The notes below the pieces were generated by a model that did not search any database, was not told the origin of the DNA, and saw only the letters and a program-made list of their open reading frames with translations. 64,000 bases of DNA, taken from a virus. The stretch lies in IMG/VR virus record IMGVR_UViG_3300034523_000174, positions 1 to 64,000 of that record, one strand, 5' to 3'. Positions 16,958 to 51,733 of the stretch are shown here, piece by piece (the first letter of the stretch is position 1; the number at the start of each line of letters is the position of its first letter). The position numbers and the translations under genes were made by a program.

Positions 16958-17857
16958 ATGCGTAAGCGCACAGGGGTTATCAGTTACAACGTGAACGAGC
17001 GCGGGCGCCAATTCGCCGGCCAAGATCGCAAAGTCAACATTCCGGCGCTGATGGCGCTGATCAACGGCCCGATGGTGCAGGAGTTAGTGCGCAAAGGGGA
17101 CGTGTATGGGTACTTCGGCCATACGTTCCGCGAGAAATACGGCCTCAACGTGCCGGAAACAGTCATTGAGGGCGGAAAAGTGGTGGTGCTGGAGCCCACT
17201 GTGCGCACGGTGATGATCAAGTGTCTGCCAGACGGCACCATCCAGCATAACCAAGAGTTTTTGAACAACGCGCCGGGGCGTATCGCTGGCCGCCTGTACG
17301 ACAGCAAGGCCTATGGGTTCAGTTCGGTGTTCCATGCCCCCGAAGAAGCTGGCCTACGCACGCCCAAGACATTCCACGGTATGGATTTTGTCAGAACCCC
17401 GAACTACGACACGAACCGGGGCTATGACGCCATGCTGGATAGTGTCGAGGCGGGCGCCATTGAGTCGCTGGGCTTCGCGGGCGAGTGCGCTGCCATGATG
17501 GACAGCGTAGAGGCGATGATGGCGCAGAGCGATGCACAGGCGGCAGAAATCAGTGAAGCCTACCTTCACCAGTGCAAAGTAAACGATGACCTGGTGGACC
17601 TCAACGCTCGCCTGATGCTGCGCCTACAGAAGGCTGGCACGGGCGCCATGCTCGACAGCGCCGATCCGACCACACTTCAGCGCGGTTCGGAGTTCCTGCC
17701 AAGCCGTGCGGCGGCCATGCTCGACAGCGCCGACCGCTTCATGAAAGCCGACCTGCCAGACCTTGAGCCGTCGCCCGAGGAAGTCGCCACCGAGAAGAAA
17801 GCCGGCGTCCTGGCCAAAAGCGTGGATCTGGTGCGTAAAGTGATCGGGGGGGTGTAA
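16958..17857 (+). CDS. Probable prohead protease-scaffold fusion with four MLDS-type motifs
   Basis: The gene directly follows the portal, the usual place for the maturation protease. Residues 25-135 have GDVYGYFGH (a candidate catalytic His) and KAYGFSSVFHAP (a candidate nucleophilic Ser), as in herpes/T4-type head proteases. Residues 140-299 are helical and scaffold-like. They carry AMLDS at 158-162, AMMDS at 179-183, AMLDS at 230-234 and AMLDS at 253-257. The ATG at 16958 is preferred to a GTG six bases upstream. The protease call rests on position and two motifs. A pure scaffold or core protein is the alternative. Confidence 0.55.
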   Translation: MRKRTGVISYNVNERGRQFAGQDRKVNIPALMALINGPMVQELVRKGDVYGYFGHTFREKYGLNVPETVIEGGKVVVLEPTVRTVMIKCLPDGTIQHNQEFLNNAPGRIAGRLYDSKAYGFSSVFHAPEEAGLRTPKTFHGMDFVRTPNYDTNRGYDAMLDSVEAGAIESLGFAGECAAMMDSVEAMMAQSDAQAAEISEAYLHQCKVNDDLVDLNARLMLRLQKAGTGAMLDSADPTTLQRGSEFLPSRAAAMLDSADRFMKADLPDLEPSPEEVATEKKAGVLAKSVDLVRKVIGGV

Positions 17858-51004: not shown

Positions 51005-51733
51005 ATGGAAAAGTTACTGCAAAACGTACTCGCCACTGGCGCCGCGATCAGCAAGGCCTACGCGAGCCCGGCACCGGAATCTCAGGCGCCAAACCTGGCG
51101 CTGTCGGGCCTCTCCGCTGCCATGCTCGACGCGCTCAATCCGGACAATGCGCCCGCTGCGCTGTTCACTGACGAAATGCGCCAAGAAGCGGTAAGCATCG
51201 TCCAGGAGTGGGCTGAGTCGGAGCTGGAAACCGGCGAAGGCTATGGTGATCGTCTTTACGCACTGATCGTTGGCAGCGCCACCGATGGCGATGAAGACAT
51301 GAGCGATGACGAAGCGGAATACGCCGCCTCCTTGGCTGAGCTGGTGGGCGACTACCTGGAAGGCAAGGGCATCGACGCCGGCGACGTGGAATCGCTGCTG
51401 AGCGATGATCCGTCGTTTGACAATGACGTGGCCGCACGCATTCACGATGCGCTGCTGGACAAGCTCCCACAGGGCGAGGACGCCATGCTCGATGACGCTG
51501 ACAAGTTCGTCAGCGGTGACGACGACGAAATGCTCGATGCGGTCTACAAAAAGGTCGTGGCTATTCGTGGCGGCAAGAAGGTTCGCATCAAGAAGCGCAT
51601 CAGTGGCCGCGTGCGGCTGACAGCAGCGCAGAAAGGTGCGGTGCGCAAAATGCAGCGCAAAGCCTTCTCGGGTGCGGCGAAAATGAAGCGCGCCAAGTCC
51701 ATGCGCTTGCGCCACCGCCTGCTCGGTAAGTAA
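51005..51733 (+). CDS. Acidic head protein with basic tail and MLDS-type motifs
   Basis: Most of the 242 residues are acidic and helical (QEAVSIVQEWAESELETGEG, DAEYAASLAELVG). The last 55 are strongly basic (KKVRIKKRISGRVRL...AKSMRLRHRLLGK), like head proteins that bind DNA or line the capsid. AMLDA at 39-43, AMLDD at 160-164 and EMLDA at 175-179 follow the shared MLDS pattern. It lies between the sheath and a tail protein. A capsid-inner or maturation role is inferred. Confidence 0.6.
   Translation: MEKLLQNVLATGAAISKAYASPAPESQAPNLALSGLSAAMLDALNPDNAPAALFTDEMRQEAVSIVQEWAESELETGEGYGDRLYALIVGSATDGDEDMSDDEAEYAASLAELVGDYLEGKGIDAGDVESLLSDDPSFDNDVAARIHDALLDKLPQGEDAMLDDADKFVSGDDDEMLDAVYKKVVAIRGGKKVRIKKRISGRVRLTAAQKGAVRKMQRKAFSGAAKMKRAKSMRLRHRLLGK

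Follow-up and report, generated by a model that had tools for sequence, protein, structure and literature searches.

The head proteases of T4, phiKZ, 201phi2-1 and SPN3US are reported to cleave after glutamate (PMC5694885). In phage P1, Edman sequencing showed that the mature capsid protein starts SVAAEM, which places the cut in gp23 at E120/S121 (PMC9024508; a slash marks the cut here and below). The cryo-EM model of P1 DarA begins at residue 70, and its authors speculate that residues 1–69 are cleaved off (PMC12810830); N-terminal sequencing of mature DarA gave no clear signal (PMC9024508). P1 DdrB is reported as processed, which that paper credits to its own metallopeptidase (PMC5512222).

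Here we analyse a window of 64 kb, the whole stretch of DNA under study, taken from a 77.6-kb virus record. Several of its proteins carry a short motif, often led by alanine, that reads M/L/V-L/F/M-D before S, A or G. Judged by sequence comparison, this motif is very probably the recognition site of a phage-encoded prohead protease that would cut after the aspartate. The system resembles P1 Pro, gp23 and DarA in its homologous protease and capsid protein, its aligned capsid site, its A-M-L-x/S flanks and its related substrate families. It differs from P1 and the enterobacterial relatives of P1, which have Glu at the P1 position and GWSW at the catalytic serine, in that the group to which the window belongs has Asp at this position and GFS[SAT]. 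Like SPN3US gp245, whose motif is A-X-E/(S), the predicted system uses a short motif with Ser favoured at P1′ and several sites per propeptide, and the predicted self-cleavage sites in the protease tail recall the C-terminal autocleavage of gp245 (PMC10052503, PMC5694885). The predicted window sites nevertheless carry Asp where the T4, phiKZ and SPN3US proteases have Glu at P1, and they are hydrophobic at both P3 and P2, unlike the sites of gp245, which takes Ala at P3 and any residue at P2.

A preliminary description of this DNA had reported that an M-[LMF]-D-[SADG] peptide recurs in five virion-type proteins. Our scan of 74 hand-picked open reading frames (ORFs) bears this out: M[LMF]D[SADG] has 13 matches, none of them outside the five named proteins, with the M at residues 161, 182, 233 and 256 of the 16952–17857 protein, 263 and 315 of the 30583–31764 protein, 248 and 267 of the 33743–37957 protein, 32 and 79 of the 46723–48408 capsid protein, and 40, 161 and 176 of the 51005–51733 protein. 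The residue numbers given earlier differ a little because other start codons were used and counting began at the residue before M. Across 2000 within-protein shuffles, all 74 ORFs yielded a mean of 1.3 matches and a maximum of 7, and the five motif proteins alone a mean of 0.32 and a maximum of 3.

At the DNA level, ATGCTCGA occurs eight times, exclusively on the + strand; the expectation for the two strands together is 1.99. As described earlier, every copy is in frame, and all eight are MLD codons of the five proteins. Leucine codons at 80 MLDS sites of Pro relatives vary (CTC 57, CTG 18, CTT 3, TTG 2), so we read ATGCTCGA as codon choice only and rejected a DNA-level element.

To score sites independently of the window, we used a position weight matrix (PWM) trained solely on the Pro sites of phages other than the window and its four closest relatives. 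Thirteen of the 20 top non-Pro hits of the Asp-site PWM fall in the other four motif proteins (hypergeometric p 1.4e-7). The top 20 of the Glu-site PWM include 18 non-Pro hits, two of them in those four proteins. Of the 15 best non-Pro window hits, three lie elsewhere, in the 41737, 41024 and 60879 proteins. The site at 765 in the 41737 protein is present in one of four close relatives, and the alignments stop short in the other three; in the 41024 protein the Asp is kept in all four, followed by Ser in three; in the 60879 protein, an RdgC-type recombination protein by profile, LDS is kept in one of four. The 41737–44058 ORF encodes a second large polyvalent protein, with an LPD1 domain and a motif-like ALLD/SIFG near its C terminus.

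The putative enzyme is encoded at 16952, next to the portal gene (phrog_1497, at 15363) and in the same genome as the gp23-type capsid gene at 46723.

16952..17857, + strand: prohead protease, P1 Pro homologue, 301 aa (tblastn, AF2 model, T4 gp21 match)
17432..17443, + strand: predicted self-cleavage site 1, AMLD/S, D163/S164, in segment 153–173 with pLDDT <50
17495..17506, + strand: predicted self-cleavage site 2, AMMD/S, D184/S185, near the start of helix 175–227
17648..17659, + strand: predicted self-cleavage site 3, AMLD/S, D235/S236, in segment 231–238 with pLDDT <50
17717..17728, + strand: predicted self-cleavage site 4, AMLD/S, D258/S259, within helix 250–265

The protein matches P1 Pro by tblastn (E 2e-20, 29.9% identity over 75% of the query). 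It consists of a catalytic domain, about residues 1–152, followed by a helical tail, and the putative catalytic residues H57, S124 and D145, candidates for a His-Ser-Asp/Glu set of the T4 gp21 kind, are invariant across 63 aligned sequences. Its AF2 model has a mean pLDDT of 78.6, with the domain confident to about residue 150. In Foldseek, three chains of T4 gp21 (PDB 5jbl) take ranks 1–3 with probabilities of 0.97 and 0.93 and E-values of 0.0094 to 0.018, which are weak as E-values. VIA-align superimposes the model on T4 gp21 over 130 residues (Z 10.8, rmsd 2.8 Å). The next VIA-align matches are herpesvirus proteases at Z ≤7.0, with unrelated rows mixed in; this lower-ranked likeness to the assemblin proteases falls in a Z range for which the tool cautions that it may reflect only a common arrangement, and assemblin substrate specificity differs. 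Searching the PDB by sequence with the Pro alignment returned no relevant match. The 16952 enzyme is by homology a member of the P1 Pro group and, in its predicted model, has the fold of T4 gp21, a protease that it would also resemble in processing both capsid and internal proteins. Sites 1 and 3 lie in low-confidence segments of the model, in agreement with self-cleavage in linkers.

P1 pro itself (19014–20033) is labelled 'tail fiber protein' by RefSeq NC_005856 and phrog_1801. This label conflicts with the protease homologues and can mislead the annotation of relatives.

The capsid protein supplies the site that can be set against a measured cut.

46723..48408, + strand: major capsid protein, P1 gp23 homologue, 561 aa, with N-terminal propeptide (tblastn; phrog_1014)
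46816..46827, + strand: predicted propeptide site NMLD/S, D34/S35 (motif scan, PWM)
46957..46968, + strand: predicted propeptide site SMLD/G, D81/G82 (motif scan, PWM)
47089..47100, + strand: predicted main capsid maturation site TTLD/S, D125/S126, aligned with P1 E120/S121

Around its cut, P1 gp23 reads KAMLE/SVAAEM, which is the window motif with Glu in place of Asp. A MAFFT alignment of whole proteins puts window D125/S126 in the same column as P1 E120/S121, and the variant previously noticed near residue 123 is real: it is the TTLD/S at D125. A capsid gene turned up in 36 of the 37 D-side records and in 25 of another 27 (5 of the 27 D-type), and we read the capsid loci in 55 of the 61 records with a match (30/36 and 25/25), two of the 55 having shortened N-termini. 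All 20 E-type capsids have E/S in the aligned column. Among D-type capsids the column holds D in 31 of 35, followed by S in 26, D in 3, A in 1 and G in 1, although the D-side alignment is gappy near the site and so supports the presence of an acid-Ser pair more securely than its exact column. The remaining D-type capsids are L185 and L186, which lack an acid in that column, and two whose N-termini are cut short.

The DarA-type substrates are two proteins of different architecture.

30583..31764, + strand: DarA_N/Hdf-like protein with C-terminal extension, 393 aa (PF18788, phrog_1620)
31081..31092, + strand: weaker predicted site AMTD/S, D169/S170 (PWM hit)
31276..31287, + strand: predicted site ALLD/G, D234/G235 (PWM hit)
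31369..31380, + strand: predicted site AMMD/S, D265/S266 (motif scan, PWM)
31525..31536, + strand: predicted site AMLD/S, D317/S318 (motif scan, PWM)
33743..37957, + strand: polyvalent protein with InPase, DarA_N and ddrB-ParB domains, 1404 aa (Pfam)
34484..34495, + strand: predicted site LMFD/S, D250/S251, aligned with P1 DarA LMTE/S (E42)
34541..34552, + strand: predicted site TMLD/A, D269/A270, aligned with P1 DarA LLE/A (E68/A69)

In the 33743 protein, an inorganic pyrophosphatase-like domain is fused to DarA_N and to a ParB domain of the DdrB type. Its DarA_N match spans residues 267–388, with TMLD/A at the start of that domain. In P1 DarA, which has two pattern matches, the motif predicts a cut at E68/A69, close to the first modelled residue. 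Missing density ahead of residue 70 is no proof of a cut; the fragment is 7.8 kDa from sequence, against about 9 kDa as reported (PMC12810830). P1 DdrB has one site only, at 441.

The fifth motif protein belongs to the P1 gp21 family.

51005..51733, + strand: P1 gp21 homologue with acidic body and basic C-terminal tail, 242 aa (phrog_1053, blastp)
51122..51133, + strand: predicted site AMLD/A, D42/A43; D42 invariant in 41 sequences; segment 27–44, pLDDT <50
51485..51496, + strand: possible weak site AMLD/D, D163/D164, within helix 158–170 (motif scan, PWM)
51530..51541, + strand: predicted junction site EMLD/A, D178/A179, between acidic body and basic tail; D178 invariant in 41 sequences

The phrog_1053 profile matches the window, P1 and D6 proteins, and blastp to P1 gp21 agrees. 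This refines the earlier description of an acidic head protein: the acidic body is there, and the protein is a homologue of P1 gp21, which is annotated elsewhere as baseplate or tail tube. Only eight columns are invariant in the 41 aligned gp21-type sequences (window included), and D42 and D178 are among them. Cutting at both would yield an acidic middle of 136 aa with a charge of about -34, and cutting at D178 would free a basic tail of 64 aa with a pI of 12 and a charge of about +24. In the structural model the body is helical, and the C terminus forms a hairpin and helices apart from it; the mean pLDDT is 62 at 171–180. It has no convincing PDB match (best E 0.72), so the role of the family stays inferred.

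A gp21-type protein was found in all 44 records searched. Ahead of the basic tail, 80 of 82 distinct D-type gp21 sequences have D at the junction, 54 of the 82 (L407–L486) having been typed by a D-type capsid on the same contig, not by Pro. Of the 11 E-type sequences, eight have E at the junction; the other three, one of them from P1, read MLTE/A. Our junction regular expression missed 6 of these 11, namely P1, JK004 and L377 (MLTE/A) and L401, L403 and L406 (MFE/A or MFE/S). In the gp21 proteins of P1 (7192–8007) and Cronobacter phage JK004 (14432–15244), the junction acid is thus shifted by one residue.

P1 gene 21 (7192–8007) is annotated as baseplate or tail tube, yet in its family a basic tail goes with predicted head-protease sites that are conserved. 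We regard gp21-type proteins as candidate head-core proteins, the evidence against the baseplate label being only indirect. P1 gp21 is absent from the virion proteome in table 1 of PMC9024508 and has 0 occurrences in the P1 cryo-EM paper. The window basic tail has only two tryptic peptides of at least 6 residues, so a similar tail could escape detection. Silencing P1 gene 21 abolishes plating, and neighbouring late genes score alike (PMC10695390), so polarity is possible. An acidic stretch in the 51005–51733 protein resembles an EF-hand loop, most clearly in Xanthomonas phage Rb1 (DENMDGDIGEDE, read by eye); for this likeness no fold match was found.

We then compared the acid at predicted sites across Pro proteins. 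IMG/VR and GTDB scans yielded at least 280 loci and at least 201 distinct Pro proteins of at least 200 residues, three Pro scans having kept the best 80 of 341, 152 and 176 relatives. Sites were counted downstream of the protease domain as hydrophobic-hydrophobic-acid-small. Among the matches listed, the 133 of 201 Pro proteins that are D-type have 363 D and 9 E sites, and the 67 that are E-type have 276 E and 3 D sites; the L373 Pro is a tie with one of each, and 12 others have a stray site of the opposite acid. The context of the catalytic serine follows the same division: among the matches listed, it is GWSW in 67 of 67 E-type proteins and GFS[SAT] in 130 of 133 D-type proteins, with GWSS in two and the pattern not found in one. 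In the GTDB matches listed, the E side comprises enterobacterial genera and the D side Moraxella and Acinetobacter. A tree of 121 representatives sets the E group apart by a single fully supported branch; the many sequences hence count as one switch, not as independent switches. What repeats is that the sites on each side of the Pro tree carry that side's acid.

No third dialect emerged among the 201 distinct Pro proteins in the matches listed. The commonest residue at the P1 position is D alone in 105, E alone in 65 and a D/E tie in 26, and another residue leads in just five (Ala in four, Ser in one), each of which has one D and no E site. Pooled over the same 201 proteins, the position holds D 367 times, E 286, Ala 118, Ser 70 and Val 70, with the rest fewer; the Ala, Ser and Val counts indicate that the loose flanks are often matched by chance. 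Taken together, these comparisons suggest that one large P1-like group cuts after Asp, and that P1 and its closest kin cut after Glu, at matching places of the same head proteins.

The preliminary description had proposed a motif search of related elements. We ran one with the pattern [ML][LMF]X[SAG], taking the window and its four closest relatives as D-type and P1, D6 and JK004 as E-type; the genomes are related, which makes any p-value for the contrast no more than indicative, the window entered with its hand-picked ORF list, and G002 contributed only four putative substrates and no capsid match, possibly a capsid missed by the automatic ORF picker. Putative substrates have 68 D and 2 E in the five D-type genomes against 1 D and 30 E in the three E-type genomes. 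The other proteins of the same genomes have 23 D and 25 E (D-type) against 22 D and 7 E (E-type). The search therefore showed the acid skew in the putative substrates and an opposite lean elsewhere, though Rb1 and ABMM1 fit poorly, with no strict-motif hit and one, respectively, in their putative substrates; their capsids use the looser forms AMD/S (D113/S114 in Rb1) and GFD/D. Composition was rejected as an explanation, since other proteins in the same genomes do not show the D/E difference. At aligned sites, the capsid, DarA-type and gp21-type proteins differ between D and E as Pro does. The Rb1 portal (26942–29224) has a C-terminal extension with motif-like SMD/G and TLD/S, read by eye.

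Whether the motif is a cleavage site or a head-entry tag had been left undecided. Multiple copies, spread over several proteins that should reside in the head, would suit a short docking tag that stays uncut and has capsid, scaffold or protease as its binding partner; in T4, as PMC9024508 mentions, internal proteins have a capsid targeting sequence. The P1 virion nonetheless contains DarB, Hdf, Ulx and DdrA (PMC9024508, table 1), and a Glu-form scan found no site in these four proteins of P1 and D6; the P1 DarB packaging signal lies within the first 30 residues (PMC9024508), and P1 Hdf, one of the four, is reported as not processed (PMC12810830). In P1 the motif thus tracks processing better than packaging, coinciding with the measured capsid cut and with the DarA density boundary, and a capsid protein requires no entry tag. 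We consider an uncut tag very unlikely and did not favour it, because DarB, Hdf, Ulx and DdrA of P1 and D6 carry no site; cleavage is strongly supported by the P1 Edman site, by the point where the DarA model begins, by the fold of the protease and by the D/E difference that runs in concert through the families. Less probable still, and scarcely credible to us, is that the recurrence has no function and stems from chance, from composition or from a short repeat inherited from a common ancestor. The motif is indeed short and was picked only once the sequence had been read, and genomes at about 80% identity will repeat it by descent; but 13 matches against 1.3 expected, five proteins of different families (save for the DarA_N common to two), the PWM result outside its training set (p 1.4e-7), and the exchange of D for E at aligned capsid, DarA and gp21 sites while other proteins lean the opposite way all speak against it.

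Cleavage after Asp, the preferred reading, leaves room for a refinement compatible with it, namely that only some sites are cut and the rest are weak or decoy matches in folded helices. We judge this evenly poised. Pro sites 182 and 256 and gp21-type site 161 fall in predicted helices, the last with an Asp at P1′ that is outside the S/A/G set used for Pro sites, and pattern matches also occur in the catalytic part of P1 Pro; on the other side, digestion may well extend to the helical tails of scaffold proteins, and SPN3US propeptides also have several sites (PMC10052503). The motif is an imperfect predictor of processing: it over-predicts in the catalytic part of P1 Pro, with three matches (E38, E77, E122), and it also matches the P1 portal, at one site (559), and DdrB. 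P1 gp23 has three matches.

From the sequences we infer that cleavage itself occurs, with Asp as the residue cut after, and that the products act as follows. Inside the prohead, the 16952 protease would cut its own C-terminal tail and remove the N-terminal scaffold domain of the capsid protein at D125/S126. It would also trim proteins of the DarA type and sever the gp21-type protein on either side of the acidic body, and the freed 64-residue basic tail could remain on DNA. A bolder proposal, to which we give somewhat less than an even chance, is that the head protease changed between Asp and Glu in concert with its sites in no fewer than four substrate families (Pro itself, capsid, DarA-type and gp21-type), giving two separate codes within one phage supergroup, and that the acidic body of gp21 masks the basic tail until the protease frees it. 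In that same tentative proposal, the gp21 family would be an internal core protein, the phage equivalent of the DNA-condensing core peptides that proteases release.

Cleavage after Asp would be a new specificity because the T4-type proteases covered by PMC5694885 cut after Glu. Our searches of open-licence papers turned up no report of an Asp-cutting T4-type head protease, and the earlier remark that no motif of this form has been described stands there for the Asp form; the Glu form is the P1 capsid site. An Asp-cutting sister group, if true, would be a natural specificity switch for which the catalytic domain, the substrates and the divergence are all in hand, so its basis is testable, first at the residues beside the catalytic serine. 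If the dialects are true, a 16952-type protease should favour the peptide GYDAMLDSVEAG over its Glu form, and P1 Pro should favour KAMLESVAAEM over its Asp form. The comparison also suggests a cleavage code for P1 itself, with predicted cuts in DarA (E68/A69), Pro and gp21, and makes P1 gp21 a candidate processed head protein. It may further explain the trimming of antirestriction proteins that such phages carry in the head. Elsewhere in the window, the ORF at 23136–25532 resembles a tail fibre, with PKD and Lcl_C-type domains.
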